From: Cystobasidiopsis lactophilus
Taxonomy: Eukaryota; Basidiomycota; Agaricostilbomycetes; Agaricostilbales; Chionosphaeraceae
Length of the DNA: 64,000 nucleotides
Assembly (NCBI GenBank): GCA_001599975.1
Contig: BCIO01000001.1
Location: 5,081,631-5,145,630, forward strand
Direction of reading: 5' to 3'
Within the stretch, counting starts at the first letter, position 1. Each line of letters opens with the position of its first letter. Of the stretch, positions 5,523-59,591 are shown in pieces. The translations under genes and the position numbers were made by a program. The notes below the pieces were generated by a model. The model ran no database searches and was not told the DNA's origin. It saw only the letters and a list, made by a program, of their open reading frames with translations.

Positions 5523-6536
5523 ATGAGGACAGCTGCCTTCACTTTCATAGCCGCCTTGCCCTTCTTCTCTGGCTTTGCTCGCGCCTGCGAAGGGGCTTGC
5601 ATCACGGACACCACCTTGGCGTGAGTGCCTTGCTCGTTGCATCTGAGCTCACTGATATAGTAAACAGGTTCATGGGCAACTACTCGGTCATCCTCAGCCA
5701 AGTCTACGACGCCATCACGACCCAGATCCACAACGACATCCTGCTGAACACGTCGCCCCAAGTCATCGCGCCTTTCCTCAGCCCCATCAAGAACCAGTTC
5801 AGCGACGGCGAGTACAACAGGACGGAATACGCCATCTTCCCCTCCTACTTCCACGGCAAATGCCAGATCAACGGCGTCAACCCGCCTGGCTGCCCCAACC
5901 CTTCTTGCCACGTGTGCGTTGCTTTCTCCCATTGGTAATCCTTTTCTTTTAGACTTCAAAGTCTGAGCTCTTCTCCAGTGTCTGCGGTACGCCGGGCAGC
6001 ATGGTCTACCACTACGACAAGCTGGTCTCACTCGTCTGGAATATCATGTCGTCTTCTTTCGCTTCATCGTTGTCCCATTCTTCCAGCGGCTACAGGTACC
6101 TGGAGAAGGCGGTCTTGAAGCAAGCGGAGGCCGACAACTTTGCCAGCCCACCTTCGATGGCCAACGCAGTCTCCCCCGGCTCCTCCTCCCCTTCCTTCTT
6201 GGGCAATGGCGGTGGCGGGTCTCCACTTGCTGGACTACCTCTTCCTCTCAAGATGAGGACCAAGCGATCGTGAGTTCTCCTCTCCTTTTTCCCTCCAGAC
6301 ATCAATTCAGCGCCACCTTCAGCAGCCCCGTCGGCGTCCGCATTTCCCAAGACATCGCTAAAGCCCGACGTCTTCGTCGACAGGTCCGGCCCATGGATTC
6401 CGAAGCCATCAAGTCCAAGCTCAAGCAGATCATGGCGAGTGCCGCTAGGGAAGGACTGCAAGCGGCGTGCGGCCCAGACTTGACCAACTGCCGCTGGGAG
6501 AAGGCGATGAAGGCGTTCATTCTCACGTTTCCTTAG
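5523..6536 (+). CDS. Predicted secreted protein, unknown function
   Basis: Four exons give a 290-residue protein: 5523-5620, 5668-5913, 5979-6269, 6299-6536. The first ~20 residues are a signal peptide (MRTAAFTFIAALPFFSGFAR) followed by ACEGACITDTT. The body has helical segments (YSVILSQVYDAITTQIHND) and paired Cys (GKCQINGVNPPGCPNPSCH, VVCGTPGS) and a basic C-terminal third ending near CGPDLTNCRWEKAMKAFIL. Introns 1 and 2 are canonical (47 and 65 nt). The third would be only 29 nt (GTGAGT...CCTCCAG), unusually short. A longer alternative from the GT at 6096 also keeps frame, so the Ser/Gly-rich middle may be partly intronic. No family was recognised. Confidence 0.65.
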
Positions 6537-12442: not shown

Positions 12443-15400
12443 TCATGCCTCGGCCATTTCCACATCGCCATCCGCGTCCGCCTCCTCCTCCTCCGACGAG
12501 TCGTCATCCGAATCATCGTCGCTGTCTTGTCCCTCTGCCACGTCGATCTTGAATGCAAACTCCCGGTCGGCGCCGATGTACGAATCGCAAACGACTGATA
12601 GAACAAATTAGTCGGCTGAGCACACAACCAGAAAAAGGCAAGCAAACACACCTGATAGCGTGAGCTCGTGGGCTCCCTTGCTTGAAGTCCACTCGAGGGT
12701 GGCAGTGTGCTTCTTGAGCAGGGGCACCTTCTTGATGCCAAGCAGGGTATCGGTCTTGCCCTTCTCCGTGACCACCAGCCACCAATTCTCGATCTTCTTG
12801 AGCGGGTAGAAGGGCGCGACGACAGCATAGCCGCCTTGCTGCTCTTGCTGTGAGATATCGTCCTCGTCGTCCTCGCGCTCGAGCACGACCTGCATGCGAA
12901 TCGGCTGGCCGGCGACCAACTCGGTTTCGTTGAGCACCGTATGTTGGATGTCGAGACCTGCGATCACATCCATGAGCACGACCAAGCAGAAGAGAAAAGA
13001 AGTACAAGAACAAACCTGGGAAAGAGTTGCAGAATCGAGCGACGTGGCCGAGCTCGCGCGGGCTCATCTGCAGCAGCTCGTTGCGCTGGTCGTCCTCCAA
13101 ATCCATGATGTCCCATACGCTCTCGACCCCAGCGGCCTTGCACCTCTCGATAATCGGGAGGGTGAAGCCAGGAATCTGGCGCAAAGGCGAGTCGGACTCC
13201 CACACAGCTTGCACCACCATCTGAGTCATGTCCATGGCTTTGAGGGCGTTGGCGTAGCCCGAAGACGACATGACGTCCACAGCCGCCGACAGCAGCTTAA
13301 CGACCTTGCCCAGAACAATCTGCTGGTCGATTTGCAAGTCGGCCGGCAGCGTGAGGCGCGAAAAGTGCGCCTGGAGGAGGAGCGACGTCTTGAAGTTGGG
13401 CGACTGGAAGTCGGCGTTGGACAGCTTGAGGGGCAGGCGGTCGTAAATCTTGCTGAGCGTCTTGTCTTCTTGATGCCGAATCGCAAGGCCTTCGAACTCG
13501 ACCGCCGAGCTGACAATTTCGAGTAAGCCCTTGAGCTTGGTCTTCTCGGTGAGCGACATCGAAAAGGTGTCCAGCGTGATGGATGAGACTTGGTAGAACG
13601 ACGCGATCAAGCCCAAGTTCAACACGCTCAAGTCCACTGCGAGCGAAGAGAGGTTGAGCGGCAGGCCAAAAGGTACACGGAAAACAGGACACTCACTCTC
13701 GTCTTCGATGGCAATGCACTTGGCCTGCTCCAAAGTCGACAGCGTGTCCTCGATCAGCTGAGAGAGGAAGTCGGACAGGTGGTGGTGGTCGGTGCCTTGC
13801 AAGTTGTAGTAGTTCGGGTTCTGGTTGAGGCGGCGATAGCACCACAACCAGGTGAACCAATCGACACACTCTTGCTTGTTCTCGATGGTACCGGATGCGA
13901 TCTCGGCCAGGAGAAAGTCGGCCAGACTGAGGTGAACGTGCGACTCGATCGGTAAACCCTCGTTCAAGAACTTCAAGAAGAAGGGCTTTCGGACTTGAGG
14001 CACCATGAGAACGCATTTCGAGCTCGAGTCTTGCAGGGGGCGGCAGGCCTTGCCCATCATCTGGAGAATGTCGGGGAAGCTGTAGTCCACGTAGCGGTGC
14101 TCTTTGCCTGTTGGCCGAACCTCAGCCGCTGCCGACGACGCAAAAAAGCGAAGCTACCTTCAAAGCTCTGCACGCCCATGAGGATGACCATGTATGCGGT
14201 CAGAGGAATGCTCCATGCGGTCTCCTTTGAGGCGACGACCACTTGAATGGCGCCCAGTTCATACAACCGCTCAACGATGAGGCGGTCTTGCGGCGACAAG
14301 CCCTCGTGATAGAAGGCAATGCCGTTGCGCAAAGTTTCCCGCAGGTCTTCGTCCTGCAGACGCTCCAGATGGGGCTCCAGATCCTCTTGCTCGATGTTGA
14401 GGAAGCGCAGCGGGTCTTGGTCCGCCAAGCAGTAGGTGAGGAGGTCCTGCGCCGCCAGGCGACAGTACTTGCGCGATGGGACGAAAACAATGACGGGCCG
14501 GTCGTCGGACCATTCGGTGATGGCAAGGTAGGTGGGTTTGGCCATTTGGATCATCAAGCTGGGGAAGTGAGGCACGTTAAAGGATTGAAGATGGACTTCC
14601 ATGGGAAGAGGGCGAGCGCCGGGCGAAAAGTTGAACGTATTCTGCGCCGAGACGCCGAGCCAGTCGGCGAGGTCCCGAGCGTTGGCCAATGAGGCGCCAA
14701 AGGCAACGATGCGAGTGGGATGTTCGACCTGGGCGGCAACATAACGCGCCCGAGAGAGGCAGATCTCGTAGGTCGGGCCGTCGTTGCTGCCGATCAAGTG
14801 GATTTCGTCCGCGATGTAGAGGGCGATTTCTTGGACAGCCTTCCGTTGCTTCCACCGCCGCGAGATCAGATCCCACTGCGCCGGAGTCGCAATGACGACG
14901 TCCGACTTGTTGAGAAGACGCAAGTCGTTGGTGGTCTCGCCAGTCAGGCTGACGATCGTCTTGCTCGGGAACTTGGCGGACCACGCCTTCACGCGGGCAT
15001 CCACCACCTCTTGGAAGGGCTCGATGCAGACGCACCGCCCAGCGTCGCTTTGAGACCAGAGCTTGAGCAATGCAAACTCGGCGCAGATGGTTTTGCCAGA
15101 GCCGGTGGGCGCGCAAAGCAAGACGTTGTCGGTGGTGTTGTAGAGGGCTTGGAAGACCTGAGTTTGAATCTTGTTGAAGTTCTTGAAACCGGATGCCGTT
15201 TCGTCGCCATATAGCTTCTCGTAGGACTTGTTGTGCAAGGCAGAGATGGGAAGGGGCTGGAGGTCGAGCAAAGTGGTCACGGGCGGGAACTTTGCGGGCA
15301 AGATGAGGTGTTGGAAAGAGATGGGCAGGCGGGTCAAGGAGTGCATCCAGCGGTCGGACACAACGGTGACAAAGTAGTTGGGTGGCGTGGGCTCCAACAA

Positions 15401-18400
15401 GGGCACAGTGAAGGTCACGAAGTGGTCTTGCTGGTTGAAGCGCTCGCGCAGCTGGAACTGGTCGGCGAACAGGATCATTTCGCCGTCCACATCTTCGACA
15501 ATGATCCAGAAGTTCTCGGTTGAGCCGTGCACCTTCGGATCCCACTCGAAATCGGGAGTGATGGTGAGCTCCATCCGCAAAAGCGAGCGGGTGATGGGCT
15601 GGACGTGCGCGGACAAAAGGACTGCGAGAAGCAAACCAACGTAAGAAGTGGGACCGTCAATGGTAGAACAGGAGGACTCACGCAGCGGGAACTGATGAAC
15701 CAACTTGTGGACGAGACGACCGGCCTTGGGCAAGCCCAGCAACTCGGCCAGCTCAGGTGGCTCAAGGAAGAAGTAGCGGTACCAGGGATACTCTTTGCGT
15801 TCGGCGCGGCGAACAATCTCGACAGGGATGTTCTTGAACTGGCGGAGCGGCGACATGGTGGTCCACATTTTCTTGTCGACCATTTTGCACAACTCGAGCG
15901 CCTTGTAGGTGAGCGAAGCCCAGCCGCGTTTGAGGCAGATCTCAAAGAGGGCGCGCAGGATGCGGCCCGCCGACTGCGTGACGTAGACCATGTCCGCCAA
16001 GAGCGCAAAGCCTTCCAATTTGAGCTGGGAGATGTAAGCTTGCAGCAGGACATTGATCTTGGCTGACGGATCGTCGACGCTTTCCTTGATGGGAATGGGC
16101 ACTCGGTCTGTAAGAACTATGTCAGAGTCCATTGTAAGAAGAACAGAGACAGACAGCTCACCCATGAGCTTGGCCAGCTCGCCCTTCTCTTCTTCGCGCA
16201 CTGGCACAAACTTGAACTCAGCCGAAATGGAGAAGATACGGAAGAGTTCGATGAGGCCGATGCTGGGCTTCAGGTGCTTGATGTAGTCCGCCATTGACGA
16301 GTAGCCGATGAAGTAGTAACTGGCAATGCGGCCATTCTCGGTTGGCTGCAACACGCCACTTGCGCGGTCGTACTTGACCAAGCCGGCCTTTTCGAGCTGG
16401 ACGGCAGCAGTATGCGCGATGTCGGCTCGCTTCTGGATCAACAACGAGTCGTCGTCCTTGTAGTCGGCCGAGATGCCGTAAAGCACCGGACTTTGAAGCG
16501 CCCGCTGGAACCAGTAGGTGTACCCCAACCAGGCAACTGTAGATCGTCGAGAATCATGAGCGAAGTATGGACGAGAGGGAGATAAGAACGCACCAGCTTC
16601 GTCACGGTTGCGGATGTTGCCGAGCACGATCTCGGCGTTGAGATTGTCGGGCATCTTCTTGACCAGCTGACTCTCAATCGGCAGCTGCTGGTTCAGCATC
16701 GACAAGAAGTATTGCAGCTCGGAGTGGTTGGTGATGATGATGCTCTCTGCAAAGGCAAGGATCAAAATCAGAAAACTTGACATCGGAATTAGGAACAAGT
16801 CTTACCTCCAAAGGTATCAAACTGCGGTCGGCCGGCACGTCCAATCATTTGCAAGACATCTGTTCAAGAGAGGTAAATTCAGTCAAAGGACAACTTGGAA
16901 GAAGCCTCCGACGCACCTTGAGGGCTAAGCTCGACCCATCGCCCCTTCTCAGGGTTGTAGATCTGGGTGCCTTTGATGATGACAGCGTGGGCTGGCAAGT
17001 TGACACCCCAAGCCAGAGTGGCGGTGGAGACCAGGCACTGGATGTGTCCGTCGGCGAACAAGTCCTCCACCGTGGTTCGGTCCTCGCGGGTCATGCCAGC
17101 GTGATGAATAGCAAAGCCAAAAGGAAGGAGGTCGCGCAAAGCTGGGTCCTTGATGTTCTCGACTTCGGTTTGAAGAATCTCACGGGAGGCCGAGTCAGGA
17201 CGGATGATCTGGGTGATGGTCTCTTGCTCCAAAGCTTTGTCGCGGAGGAACTGAGCCGTCTTGGAGGTCTCTTTGCGAGAGTGGACGAAGACCAGGCATT
17301 GGCCGCCGTCAGAAGAGGTGACCTGCTCGAGCAGCTTCTCGTAGCACACCTCGTTCATGACTTGGTGTCGGGTCAAGGCGCGCTTTTCGGTGACGCCGAT
17401 GAACTGCTGCTTCAACGGGCACGGTCGGAAAGACGAGTCGAAATAAAACAAGCCCTTCTTGGGATCCACGCGAAGGAAGCGGGCGACGTCCAAGTAATTG
17501 GGCAAGGTGGCGGAGAGGCCGACGAGACGGACGTAATCCTGCGTCTGCTCCATCCGGCGAATGATACGGGCGACCAATGCCTCCAAGACTGGCCCACGCT
17601 CGTCGTGCAGCAAGTGGATCTCGTCGATGATGACGAGGCGGACGAGGTTGGTGTAGGACGTGTCGGTGGCCTTGCGGGTGATGACGTCCCACTTTTCGGG
17701 CGTGGTGACGATGATCTGGGTAGAAGAGATCTGCTCCTTGGTCAGCGAGCGGTCGCCGGTGAGCTCGGAGACTTGGATGCCGAGGTAGGAGAGGCGGGCA
17801 GAGAAGTTGCCGACTTGCTCAGCCACCAAAGCCTTCATGGGTGCAATGTAGATGATCTTGAAGCTGTCAAGGTCGATCTGGCCCGTCGCTGGGTCCCGGT
17901 GCTTGTTGATCTCGTTGAGCATGCAAAGCATGGCCACGTTGGTCTGTGCGTTTGATCAGAAAAACTCAGCTCAAGCGAACGAGAAGCTGAGGGAAACGAG
18001 GACGCACCTTGCCAGCACCAGTAGGCGCGCAAAGAAGCAAGGGCTCATCTTGAGCTTCCGGGTCGGCGTGGAAAGCAGCCGGGAAAAGGCGAGACTGGAT
18101 CCTGTTCAGGGTGGGGTGGCTCTTGAACGGCTCTCGCGCCCACTCTGGCAGCGAAGTGGTGGGCACCAGCTTGTCGGTGAAGTTTTGCTTGGGAGGAATC
18201 GGGATGTGGACCTCCTCGTAGGACTTCTTGGAGCGCTTGAAGGAGCCTTCTGGCAGCTTGCACTTCTTGTTGGACATGAGCCTGGCACCTTGGGAGAAGG
18301 CCATGGACTCGAGGTCGACCGTCTGGCGAGGCTTGGCCAAAGAGCCGGGGGCCAAGGTGACCTTCTTGGGAATGGCTTCGGGCTGGTCGAGCTGCATGGC

Positions 18401-19627
18401 GGAGCCGTCTTTGGCTGCGCCGGCGGAAAGCTCCTTCAAGACCCAGCCGACGCCCTTCTCGCGCATGGCCACTTCCAAATCCATCTTCTCGTCGTCCGAA
18501 GCACGGGCGAGGCGGGTGCACCAGACGATGCGGTCGCGGTTCTCGACTAGCGTCTTGACAATCTCGAAGTGCTCGAACTCGAACAAGTCCATCAAAGCGT
18601 TCTCGAGGTCGCGGGCGTTGGCATCGGAGCCCATCTGGGTAAGGGCGTCGGTCGCCTTGGAAGTTGCCGTTTGCGGATCGGAGTAAACAGTGGCAATGAG
18701 GCGCTGGAGCCAGAAACCGTCGATGTCGCGAGCTGTTAGCCGGGCCTCTTGCTTCTTCTTGGAGGAGGCGCCGCCAATAGTGATAGCCTCGTCGGCGCCC
18801 TCGTCGTCGTCAGCCTTCACAGCATCGTCGTCCGAGTCTTCCTCCTCAGAGTCGTCGATGAAGCCTGCAACAGCGTCCTCATCGTCTATTGCGTCGCCCT
18901 CTTCCTCCTCCTCGTCATCGTCCTCGAAAACAACGGCCACACCGGTGTCCTCGTCAATGTTGCCATCCTCCGCCTCCGGGTCTTTGGCCGGCCCGTCGTC
19001 GTCCTCGTAGTCGGTGATCTTCTTGGACAGGCTGACGAGCTCGTTGAAGGTGGCCTCGGGCACCGTGGTGCCAACGGTGGCCTCGATCTCGCGCTTGCGG
19101 TCGAGGTCTTTTTTCGAGGCGTCCTGCTCCTTGAGCACCTCAACAACGTAGTCAGTAGCGGATCGAACGACGTCTTGAGGCTGGTCGCCGACGAGGGAGT
19201 GGACGGCGGCGAGCATGAGCTCGAACACCTGCCTGGTCTCTTGGGTCCTCGGGCGGTACTTGAGGCCCTCGAGCTCGTTGGTGGCGGCCAGGACGTCCAT
19301 GTGGGAGAGTCTGGCCTTGGTCCGGACCTGCTCCTTGTCTTTTAAGGCCGGCTTGAGCGTCGGTTTCGCCGCCGTCGTCCTCGCCACCCTGGACCCCATC
19401 TCTTTGGGGTCGATCTTGCCGACCAACGACTCAATCTCGCCGCCGGCCTCGTCGTTGCGCCTCGAGACGAACCGGCGATCTGCGGTCGTCACTTTGGAGC
19501 TCATCTCGCTGCGTGTGGGATCGACGGTCAGCGCGAATGCTCGAACAACAGGCAGAGTGAGAAGGACGACGCACTTGTAGGCATATTGCCCCTCGAGCGC
19601 CCGCTTTTTCTCCTCGTAGGACGCCAT
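12443..19627 (-). CDS. BRR2: U5 snRNP 200 kDa helicase Brr2
   Basis: A multi-exon gene of roughly 2,150 codons, the usual Brr2 length. It starts at 19627 ([17 protein letters not shown], intron from 19574) and ends in an acidic tail ([20 protein letters not shown]) at 12443. Two Ski2-type helicase cassettes are seen in order. The first has [11 protein letters not shown] (split by an intron), [40 protein letters not shown] and [12 protein letters not shown]. The second has [32 protein letters not shown] and a [13 protein letters not shown] equivalent. Each is followed by a Sec63-type domain. The N-terminal cassette is the active ATPase that unwinds U4/U6 snRNA during spliceosome activation; the second is regulatory and carries degenerate motifs, as known for the family. 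Long plus-strand frames opposite this gene are codon-bias shadows. Confidence 0.95.
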
Positions 19628-21439: not shown

Positions 21440-23551
21440 ATGGATATGTATGGTGGTATGGGAGGAATGGGAGGAGGCATGGATATGATGTACGTCCAGT
21501 CCTGCTACATCTTGCCGAAAGAGGCAAGGGCACTAACGTATTCTGGGTGGCGAATGTCTTCAACAGGGTATGAGCTCTCCCGTCTTTGCCTTGGACTATC
21601 GCTCAGCTAGGATACATTCGAATAGGGAGGAATGTAAGTCGCTGGCGATGCTTCTTCAGTCGGGGCAAGTTGACGAAAGTTAACCTTGCGATGGATGCAG
21701 GGTATGATCTCTCGCTGGCAAGATCTTGGACCTGACAGGTTACTGACGCTCCCTTTGATCTCTTCAGGGCGGAATGGGAGGAATGTAAGCTTGTTAACTC
21801 CAAGACGCGTTGCATCCGGGGCTAAGGCTGGCCGACCTTTCCGGTTTGCAGGGTTAGTTCCCGCCTTGTTCTTCTTGGTCTTGAGTCTCTGACGGATAGC
21901 CATGAACGATGGTATGCAGGACATGATGGATAAGTCGCTTCCCTTCTTATTGATCCTCTTGGCGACAAGCTAACTCGTTGACGCGCACGGGGTGGAGGAA
22001 TGATGGGAGGCGAGTTTCTGGGCTTTTGAGCTGGCCTGACCTCTCTGAACCCTCGCTTCACCAGGTATGGGCGGCGGCATGGGAGGACGACAGGTAAGGA
22101 GCCTCGAGACTCGGTGGCAAATTGACCTTCGGCTCATTGTCGTGCCCACCTCGAACCACCAGAGATGGCGAGGTTGCGTCCATGGGCTAACGACGTTGCT
22201 TTTCGCTGCTTGTGCTGGCTTGTAAGTTGTTAACACTGAATGGGCAGACCAGCAGCTAAAGGTGGAGCCCAGCATCTTCGCGGGCGCGTTTGTTTCTGTC
22301 TCGACCACGAACGGCAAGACCTTCAAACCAGCTTTCAAGCCCGACCCTAATGATCCTCAAGCGGCCAAAGAACAAGCCTTGTTCTGGCTTCACATTGCAG
22401 GTGCGTTTTTGGCTGCGACTTATGTCGGACGACGGGCGACTTTAGAGCTCGATTTGTCCAGGCGGTATTCTCTGTGTCCTTTGCATCCCTCTAACTCTAT
22501 TCGAGCGGCATCACCCGATTAATCAACTAGGCATGATGTGCATGCGCGGCGGGGTTCGTTCTTAGGCTCCTTTGCCGCAGCCATTGACTGACTTGACGAG
22601 AGGCTCCGATCTCTAGTGGCACCAAATAGGTCAAATGGACCAAGAATGGAAAGAACTACCGCTCATTTTATTCCTAATCACCTTGGCGGTTCGTTGCCCC
22701 CCTTCATTTCATTCAGAGATCTTTGATGACCTGGAGTCTAAACAGGTCGTGATCACCACCTTGGTCATGGACATCCTCGATCTGGGGACCGGATTTAACA
22801 CCTGGAGCCATTTGACGCAGGTCGTGGTCATTGGCTATGGCTCGACGGGCGTCGCCGCCGCCGCGCTCGAAGCGTTCAGCGCCTACGGCCAAAGCATGCC
22901 TGGCATGGGCGGTGGTGAGCTTTCTTTGCAAGCTTTTGATGTCCGGAGCTGATGGAGATTGGTAAACAGGCATGGGCGGTAAGTCTTGCTCTCTCCTGGT
23001 TTCCGACTCTGCAGCTCACTTGGCGTTCTCCTCTAAGGCATGGGCGGTATGGGCGGTGAGCCTCCCTCGTCCTTCTGTTCGGAGATAGAGTACTCACAAC
23101 ATGACTTTGCAACAGGCATGGGCAAGTACTCTGCCCCTTCTTTCGGGTGGCTTGGCTAACCTCTCACCTTGTGCTTTTCAGGCGGCATGGGTAAGCGCAT
23201 CCCTTTCGAGTGTCAACGGAGCTTTCTGACAGTTTTCAACAGACATGATGGGCGGCATGGGGTGAGTGATCGGCGATCCACCGAAAAGACCTTTGGCTCA
23301 TTGCTGAACTTTGTGATCTCGCTCGACAGAGGGTGAGCTGTCGACTCCTCGCTGCGCGTTCCTTCTAACTCTCAAGTTTCTTTTTGTTGCAGCATGGGGT
23401 AAGTTTCCGATATCAAGCTCAACCATGGGCAGCCTCTGACACATTGAACCCTCAATTCAGCGGAATGGGCAAGTTACCCCTCGCGCTCTTGGCTCGGTCT
23501 CACACTAATGCGTTTAATTCAGGTGGAATGGGAGGCATGGGAGGATTCTAA
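21440..23551 (+). CDS. Gly/Met-repeat membrane protein built from about 24 mostly tiny exons
   Basis: My best chain has 24 exons: 21440-21489, 21567, 21626-21633, 21701, 21768-21784, 21827-21852, 21900-21929, 21989-22009, 22065-22093, 22163-22172, 22248-22400, 22462-22464, 22531-22553, 22617-22688, 22746-22914, 22970-22978, 23038-23055, 23116-23121, 23182-23190, 23243-23261, 23330-23332, 23393-23398, 23461-23468, 23523-23551. The sum is 720 nt, 239 residues plus stop. Both ends are GGM repeats (MDMYGGMGGMGGGMDMM at the N-terminus, GGMGGMGGF at the C-terminus). The core has EPSIFAGAFVSVSTTNGKTF and two likely membrane segments (ELPLILFLITLAVVITTLVM; TQVVVIGYGSTGVAAAAL). Introns are 42-77 nt, with GC-AG at 22010, 23122 and 23469. 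Least certain are the 1-nt exons, the 21827-21852 exon, the 10-nt exon and the 21930-21988 intron. A canonical alternative at the last joins 21911 to 21998. I do not recognise the family. Confidence 0.6.
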
Positions 23552-24110: not shown

Positions 24111-24632
24111 ATGGCCCCACGAGTTACCCTCCGAACGAGGAAGAGCTACAACACTGTTCGTCGTCGTCGTTTCCGTCCAGAGCTCAGAGACTCACACGCA
24201 TCGAACAGGCTTCGAACCTCCGAAAAATCTCAAAGACGCCAGGTTCGCTCGCCCCGGCTTCCGTTGACAGCTCATTTGGACACAGGACTGAGACTGGGCA
24301 CTATGTACAGGTGGCAAGACCGTTTACTTGAGGCAAAAGAAGCGCGGCGGCCAGCCCAAATGCGGTGACTGCCACTCGGTCCTTTACGGCGTGCGTTTGC
24401 CCTCCCTTCGCTTTATACAGAGCTGGTATTCACCTTCAACGGATGCGCACAGATCCCAGCTCTCCGCCCAAGGCAATACGCCACCATCTCCAAGCGCCAA
24501 AAGACCGTCACCAGGGCATACGGCGGCTCGAGGTGCTCAAACTGCGTCCGCGACCGGGTCGTCCGCGCCTTCCTCATCGAGGAGGCCAAGATTGTCAAGA
24601 AGGTCATCAAGGCGCAGAAGGAGGCCAAATAA
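24111..24632 (+). CDS. RPL34: Large-subunit ribosomal protein eL34
   Basis: Four exons (24111-24155, 24209-24242, 24311-24390, 24453-24632) encode 112 residues. The sequence follows eL34 end to end: [75 protein letters not shown], and [19 protein letters not shown]. The CGDC and CSNC pairs are the zinc-finger cysteines of the family. It is a cytosolic 60S subunit protein. The first exon has only 45 nt and the second 34 nt, a common layout for fungal ribosomal genes with 5'-biased introns. Confidence 0.96.
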
Positions 24633-58648: not shown

Positions 58649-59496
58649 CGCCTTCCGCGGCTCTCCTCGCTTCGGTGAGCTCTTGTCTTACCAGCGTCTT
58701 GGGACACAGCCGCTGACAAGGTCGTCTTTGCAGATCCTCCAAATTCCGCAAGCTTTGTTTCACGAGATTTGTTTTGGCTCCCAGCGCCCGAGCTGCCCAG
58801 CGTCGCCCTCTTTCCAACACGCTCCCCCTCTGCCAGCAACGGCGTCTTGCAGCGAACCTTGAAGTGTGATGCCAGTCGATATAGAGTGGCCGGACGGTGA
58901 TGAACTGGGACGGTTGGGGAAGTGCGGGAGCCTGAAAAGTGGCGATCACCACTTGCCAACTTCTTAGCTCTTTGGGCTATGGATTGGCTTGTCGTGCTTG
59001 CATTCTGACTTTGTCACCTTTCTCGATTCATAGGCGATCTTCCAACACCGTGCTGGGCAAGGTCCCAAGCAGAAATGAGACTGGGCACGATTTAGAGAGC
59101 GCGGTCCCGCTTCCGCTTCCGCACCATGCCAACAATTTTCATGCACTCCATCTGGGGCCTCTTGCGTCTCTTTCCTGCCCTTCTGCGTGTTCCACAATGC
59201 ACAATATGACTAAGACAAGCAGTGCCTTGTGTTCGCAAAGCTCGCCAGACCCGCAGAAACCGATTTGCACTCGAGGGCCTGCTTCTTTTAGCGCTTTGGA
59301 TCTCGGTCAAACTTGCGCCAAATCGATCCCTTTAAAGCCTGGTCCGTGTGTGAACTGCTGGTGAATGCATCGATGCTCTAAATGCAAAGATTGGTTGTGA
59401 TTTGGGCGAAGAAATGTCGAAAATCGGCGAAGGGCCGCGTTTTGGGGCGTTTTACGAGCAGAATGCCACTCTAAACGCGCTGGACCTCTCTAACTG
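58638..59496 (-). repeat. Inverted repeat, right arm (859 bp)
   Basis: The mirror copy of 53836-54694. Its outer end is the first base of an intact tRNA-Ile(AAT). Both arms carry the same 141-codon frame pointing away from the cassette (58939-59364 here, 53968-54393 minus in the left arm), which has no recognisable domain. Confidence 0.85.
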
Positions 59497-59588
59497 CTCG
59501 ATTAGCTCAGTTGGTTAGAGCGTGGTACTAATATACTTCCAAGTATTAGTAAATGCCAAGGTCAACAGTTCGACCCTGTTATTGAGCA
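59496..59588 (+). tRNA. tRNA-Ile(AAT) with 19-nt intron
   Basis: The cloverleaf closes completely. The acceptor GCTCGAT pairs with ATTGAGC (one G-T), the D-arm is GCTCAGTTGGTTAGAGC, the anticodon stem TGGTA pairs with TGCCA, and the T-stem AACAG pairs with CTGTT around TTCGACC. The anticodon AAT is at 59530-59532. The intron is 59534-59552; its TATTAG pairs with the anticodon loop CTAATA, as required for tRNA splicing endonuclease. The discriminator base is A at 59588. The internal A box (TAGCTCAGTTGG) and B box (AGTTCGACCCT) are present. Confidence 0.9.
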
Positions 59589-59591
59589 ATC

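Follow-up and report, generated by a model that had tools for sequence, protein, structure and literature searches.

The region from 21440 to 23551 on the plus strand of the window, i.e. of the whole 64,000-nucleotide stretch of fungal nuclear DNA (GC content 56%) analysed here, very likely holds a real protein-coding gene for a membrane protein of about 240 residues with an array of Gly-Gly-Met (GGM) repeats at each end, in which the arrays are cut by ordinary U2 introns. Computational evidence supports the core prediction of a GGM gene of 22-24 exons, at least ten of them 10 nt or shorter and some a single base long. On the splice and codon model used here, the chain of micro-exons is very probably real and an extreme form of a known phenomenon. 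From the splice signals, the reading frame and the statistics of the sequence, we infer that the gene is transcribed and spliced as described below.

Gene model and exon structure

A splice and codon model was trained on the window alone, with the micro-exon region left out, and comprised codon usage, matrices for donor, acceptor and branch sites, and intron lengths. For training, 17 other predicted genes supplied 83 introns, with a median length of 59 nt, a 5-95% range of 49-76 nt and a maximum of 112 nt. As an external check, the resulting decoder returned the ribosomal protein eL34 in full length and conserved form, with three introns, and it called a single internal exon of at most 15 nt among 100 exons of the other genes, so it is not prone to inventing micro-exons. 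It is blind to GGM, and since its codon table penalises GGA (-1.05) and GGT (-0.77), the repeat gave the model no help.

The main decoding was pinned at the ATG at 21440 and the TAA ending at 23551, which were found, together with the GGM islands and their flanking donor and acceptor signals, where a preliminary description of the locus had placed them. One non-canonical class, AT-AC, could be used at a cost of 6 nats. The top-scoring path (29.9) consists of 22 exons with 723 nt of coding sequence; variants that score almost as well comprise 22-24 exons and 684-765 nt. This agrees with the about 24 exons of the preliminary description, at least ten of them of 10 nt or less and including single bases; its exact coding length of 720 nt was not reproduced as the best chain. 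The predicted features, all on the plus strand, are:

21440-21489 (+), exon 1: 50 nt; start codon and first GGM array (MDMYGGMGGMGGGMDM followed by AT)
21490-21566 (+), intron 1: 77 nt, GTACGT...CAG; posterior 0.53
21567-21567 (+), exon 2: single base G, completing AT/G
21568-21625 (+), intron 2: 58 nt, GTATGA...TAG; posterior 0.84
21626-21633 (+), exon 3: 8 nt, GGAGGAAT
21634-21700 (+), intron 3: 67 nt, GTAAGT...CAG; posterior 0.94
21701-21701 (+), exon 4: single base G
21702-21767 (+), intron 4: 66 nt, GTATGA...CAG; posterior 0.72
21768-21784 (+), exon 5: 17 nt, GGCGGAATGGGAGGAAT
21785-21851 (+), intron 5: 67 nt, GTAAGC...CAG; posterior 0.96
21852-21852 (+), exon 6: single base G
21853-21919 (+), intron 6: 67 nt, GTTAGT...CAG; posterior 0.94-0.95
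21920-21929 (+), exon 7: 10 nt, GACATGATGG
21930-21988 (+), intron 7: candidate U2-type AT-AC, 59 nt, ATAAGT...CAC, branch GCTAACT; posterior 0.39
21989-22009 (+), exon 8: 21 nt, GGGGTGGAGGAATGATGGGAG
22010-22064 (+), intron 8: 55 nt, GC-AG
22065-22093 (+), exon 9: 29 nt, GMGGGMGGRQ
22094-22255 (+), stretch with three candidate structures: scores 29.9, 26.9 and 26.2
22256-22400 (+), exon 10: 145 nt, core start; 5' border depends on the reading of 22094-22255
22401-22461 (+), intron after exon 10: 61 nt, GTGCGT...CAG; posterior 0.98
22462-22553 (+), exon 11: 92 nt; further intron 22474-22530 possible, posterior 0.12
22617-22688 (+), exon 12: 72 nt, second membrane segment
22746-22914 (+), exon 13: 169 nt, core end and start of the 3' GGM array
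22970-22978 (+), exon 14: 9 nt, GCATGGGCG; flanking introns posterior 1.00
23038-23055 (+), exon 15: 18 nt
23116-23121 (+), exon 16: 6 nt, GCATGG, followed by a GC-AG intron
23182-23190 (+), exon 17: 9 nt, GCGGCATGG
23243-23261 (+), exon 18: 19 nt
23330-23332 (+), exon 19: 3 nt, AGG; flanking introns posterior 1.00; omission costs 9.4 nats
23393-23398 (+), exon 20: 6 nt, CATGGG
23461-23468 (+), exon 21: 8 nt, CGGAATGG
23469-23522 (+), last intron: 54 nt, GC-AG; posterior 0.63; read through by the codon-blind decoder
23523-23551 (+), exon 22: 29 nt, GGMGGMGGF and stop TAA

In the best chain, the eleven internal exons of 10 nt or less measure, in order, 1, 8, 1, 1, 10, 9, 6, 9, 3, 6 and 8 nt. 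With 17 of the 22 exons no longer than 29 nt, the gene is coded mostly by micro-exons. The gene has 29 introns per kb of coding sequence; the other genes have 2.8 when taken together, with a maximum of 5.7. Nearly all introns have sizes and splice signals that are ordinary for the window, and the comparison with the training introns bears out the earlier statement that their sizes are normal. Flanks of donor-like GT or GC and YAG, as previously described, apply to most introns; the exceptions are the AT-AC candidate at 21930-21988 and, in the 3' part, the intron at 22979-23037, which ends in AAG instead of YAG. Breaks within glycine codons (G/GN or GG/N, the slash marking the exon border) dominate the 3' part, and the 5' part has six AT/G or ATG/ breaks. 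The proposal that most breaks fall in glycine codons, as if intron gain had been favoured at GG, thus fits the 3' array only.

Of the nine 3' introns, eight have posteriors of 0.99-1.00, the last being the exception (0.63); the six introns around the single-base exons have posteriors of 0.53-0.96. When codon scores were set to zero and AT-AC introns allowed, the AT-AC intron, all three single-base exons and the 3' micro-exons up to 23398 were still chosen, but the decoder read through two introns, namely the one at 22094 and the last. The latter is in frame without a stop and could therefore be retained. The stretch 22094-22255 can be read as one 162-nt intron (29.9), as two introns around a 10-nt exon at 22163-22172 (26.9), or as a 59-nt exon at 22163-22221 with a 51-nt intron at 22222-22272 (26.2), which would add a hydrophobic segment. 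A hand-made chain with an extra intron at 22474-22530 (684 or 708 nt) was dropped, as the decoder favours read-through. Non-canonical donors look enriched in the gene, with three GC-AG introns (22010-22064, 23122-23181 and 23469-23522) and the AT-AC candidate (21930-21988) among about 21 introns, compared to two GC-AG introns among 83 elsewhere.

Predicted single-base exons

Three exons of the gene are, on the decoder's best chain, probably a single base long. Their contexts are CAG/G/GTATGA at 21567, CAG/G/GTATGA at 21701 and CAG/G/GTTAGT at 21852, in each of which a single base separates a complete acceptor from a complete donor. The three 5' gaps in which they lie (136, 134 and 135 nt) each carry YAG/G/GT at a spacing that fits two normal introns, and in all three the motif supplies exactly what the GGM frame needs. 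At valid spacing, YAG/G/GT occurs in about 1.2% of matched window segments, giving about 1.6e-6 for all three if they are independent. Forbidding 1-nt exons lowers the score from 29.9 to 21.9. Omission of all three bases lowers it to 14.5 and turns GGMGGMGGM into EEWRNGRND, so that the GGM frame is lost; the overall frame survives because the three bases are lost together. The near-equal lengths of these composite gaps within 21490-21919 would fit an old unit duplication, but their introns no longer align.

Candidate AT-AC intron

The preliminary description had a GGM frame at both ends of the gene. This frame is kept, but it requires an AT-AC intron at 21930-21988 that had gone unmentioned. 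In the frame of the next exon, the island GGTGGAGGAATGATGGGAG at 21991-22009 encodes GGGMMG. In this frame, a TGA at 21979-21981 lies upstream of the island with no AG between them, and an AT-AC intron is the sole in-frame route to this next GGM island, as is required to keep GGM in frame through 21989-22009. Exon 7 (GACATGATGG) is followed by ATAAGTC, in which the donor equals GTAAGT except for the first base; the candidate ends in CAC, has a good branch site, GCTAACT, 15 nt upstream of this end, and its length of 59 nt equals the window median. It thus combines AT...AC ends with a U2-like donor and branch, and U2-type AT-AC introns are known to deviate in just this way, at the first and the last base together. 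The class is mentioned in PMC7072748, where AT-AC introns account for 0.019% (about 0.02%) of annotated fungal introns. Because such introns are rare in fungi, we consider this step of the predicted chain only fairly likely. If the AT-AC class is excluded, the top-scoring path (25.5) comprises 22 exons with 729 nt, and GGM is no longer kept in frame around 21934-22093.

Predicted protein

The predicted product has 240 residues, including 62 Gly and 35 Met. Its N-terminal part reads MDMYGGMGGMGGGMDMMGGMGGMGGMDMMGGGGMMGGMGGGMGGRQ and is followed by the core and by a second GGM array ending GGMGGMGGF. Two strong hydrophobic segments of the core span residues 87-105 and 139-157, and a third, weaker segment lies near VVVIGYGSTGVAAAALEAF; the two-membrane-segment core described earlier is thus retained, with a weaker segment added. 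Two membrane segments would place both GGM arrays on one side. The GGM arrays resemble chaperonin tails; as a copper-binding or chaperonin-tail-like role would follow from resemblance alone, it is not claimed here. Pfam searches with the core, N-terminal and neighbour pieces returned nothing meaningful for this protein, a PDB sequence search with the core gave no match up to E = 10, and no relatives of exon 13 were found in the prokaryote genome and viral contig collections.

Chance and alternative readings

A decoder that rewards GGM found at most 3 GGM or MGG words in the fully shuffled region, against 39 in the real chain. When the islands, as defined from the observed fit, were kept and the introns shuffled (200 shuffles), the null score was -66 ± 9 with a maximum of -43, against the observed 29.9. 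Partial shuffles (150 trials each) gave maxima of 26.0 for the 5' introns, 22.0 for the core and -7.4 for the 3' introns, none of which reaches 29.9. With only the three 5' intron pairs shuffled, the maximum was 28.1, and the real pairs beat 150 of 150 trials, though narrowly. By these shuffles, the 3' half is far beyond chance, whereas the 5' part is weaker and needs the signals and the GGM frame jointly. A decaying pseudogene or a chance repeat, without splicing, would fit the homologue searches, which returned no match, but it is very improbable in view of about 21 introns with intact splice signals, branch sites and frame, and of the wide margin by which the shuffles fail.

Two further readings accept splicing but modify the 5' part or the extent of the gene. 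If the single-base exons were unused, three introns of 134-136 nt would be removed whole and the frame restored by the joint loss of three bases, leaving it open to the same stop over 720 nt. The extreme rarity of single-base exons in known genes speaks for this, as do the weak donors after the first two of the three single bases (8th percentile of ordinary donors). We nevertheless judge it unlikely, since its chain scores 14.5 compared to 29.9 and reads EEWRNGRND for GGMGGMGGM, its introns are longer than any in the training set, and YAG/G/GT is unlikely to occur by chance in all three gaps. Less probable still is a shorter functional gene, starting at the ATG at 22165 and/or ending at 23402, with the 5' GGM islands as remnants or untranslated sequence. 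The unpinned decoder with ordinary intron cost does prefer a 12-exon gene at 22165-23402 (42.0 vs 29.9), which keeps micro-exons of 9, 18, 6, 9, 19 and 3 nt. However, the 5' islands encode GGM in a single connected frame from an ATG, the GGM islands at 23461-23551 would have no use if the gene ended at 23402, and the full chain wins (59.2 vs 57.3 and 81.7 vs 68.8) when the intron cost is relaxed towards the gene's own intron rate, a relaxation chosen by the analyst. The decoder found no rival gene on the opposite, minus strand. The full chain from 21440 to 23551 is the reading that we follow below.

Comparison with known systems

Single-base exons are known from Arabidopsis APC11 (PMC4674806) and Fusarium CYP621A (PMC12940212); the latter paper, from 2026, put the number of reports on single-nucleotide exons at only two. 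The CYP621A exon is likewise a fungal one-base G exon, located inside AGGGT and needed for the frame, and it is supported by RNA reads; it is the only such exon in its gene and belongs to a conserved enzyme motif, whereas the gene described here would have three predicted ones, situated in a repeat. In APC11, for which intron definition and sequential (recursive) removal were proposed (PMC4674806), the exon is a single A in a plant gene with longer introns and was shown with reporter constructs, whereas here the exons are predicted. Schistosome micro-exon genes (PMC4671649) are also coded mostly by micro-exons, several of which are symmetrical, making in-frame skipping possible. They differ in having a signal peptide, two long flanking exons and micro-exons under 36 bp, of which 79% are symmetrical in the published set. 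The present gene, in contrast, has exons down to 1 nt and short terminal exons (50 nt for the first, encoding a Gly/Met run, and 29 nt for the coding part of the last), and judged from the translation it does not combine a signal peptide with long flanking exons.

In Cryptococcus CNN00420, repeat expansion multiplied introns inside the repetitive region of the gene (PMC2395259). Several introns inside the repetitive region of a fungal gene are common to both cases, but the introns gained in Cryptococcus are identical copies, while those of the micro-exon gene are not recognisably similar. Stwintrons (PMC12403724, PMC6616335) are neighbouring fungal introns with obligatory sequential removal, in which the splice signal of the outer intron is interrupted. 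Here, no internal intron interrupts an external donor, branch or acceptor; each intron is complete, with one exonic base between neighbours.

That no fungal gene of this density had been described, as stated in the preliminary description, agrees with the open-licence literature, in which neither a gene with more than one single-base exon nor a fungal gene with so high a share of micro-exons came to light. Single-base exons and functional fungal micro-exons as such have already been published (PMC11121469, PMC12940212). We see about an even chance that this one fungal gene is spliced accurately throughout, with three GC-AG introns and one U2-type AT-AC intron, and that, besides three constitutive exons of a single base, it includes one exon of 3 nt and seven of 6-10 nt. 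At about 29 introns per kb of coding sequence compared to 2.8 in its neighbours, its micro-exon architecture would then be the densest described for a fungus.

Proposed splicing and intron origin

The GGM arrays would be cut into exons of 1-29 nt by introns of ordinary size with U2 signals. Since nearly all introns are ordinary in size and signal strength, intron definition would be enough for recognition: each intron of 52-77 nt would be recognised as a unit, and exon length would hardly matter. The two introns beside an exon of 1-3 nt could not be occupied at once, and would therefore be removed one after the other. Removal of the intron at 21490-21566, for instance, would join AT to G and create ATG/GTATGA, a complete donor for the next intron. 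In the 3' part, the exons of 9, 18, 6 and 9 nt all have phase 1-1; the loss of any one would do no more than shorten the repeat, so alternative splicing could yield repeat-length variants.

The most likely origin of the intron-rich state is that the repeat presented the same G/G and AT/G site over and over, and that introns accumulated either through duplication of repeat units with an intron inside, through repeated gains at the same motif, or both. The best intron pair within the gene has a similarity of 15.5, compared to up to 21.0 for unrelated pairs elsewhere, and mean similarity is slightly higher within the gene (2.7) than in cross comparisons (1.7). The introns are thus not alike in sequence in the manner of introner-like elements, and an origin from introners or recent duplication was rejected for their insufficient similarity. 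As the introns are no longer recognisably similar, the duplications would be old, or the introns would have arisen separately at the same motif.

If confirmed by cDNA, the gene would provide an extreme natural test of the minimal exon needed by the splicing machinery; how small a workable exon can be, and in which order introns are removed, are open questions. Three single-base exons in a short gene would form a compact natural substrate for comparing intron definition with sequential splicing. For annotation pipelines, too, the gene is a difficult object, and it allows one to ask whether repeats attract introns or introns stabilise repeats.

Neighbouring genes

The gene for eL34 (24111-24632, plus strand, four exons) lies directly downstream of the micro-exon gene. 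Among solved structures, those of filamentous ascomycetes come nearest to its protein sequence, although this sample is too small for placing the fungus. ARAGORN called a tRNA-like gene at 59495-59589 (+) with an anticodon that was not assignable; as the Rfam search returned no match, this call is probably spurious. The predicted gene at 5523-6536 (+) contains a 10-nt internal exon at 6326-6335, which may be real or a decoding error; apart from those of the micro-exon gene, it is the only internal exon in the window's predicted genes that does not exceed 15 nt. BRR2, a core splicing helicase, shares the window with the micro-exon gene; it is encoded on the minus strand at about 12443-19627, and its 12 predicted exons over 2180 aa indicate that intron density is not generally extreme in the window.
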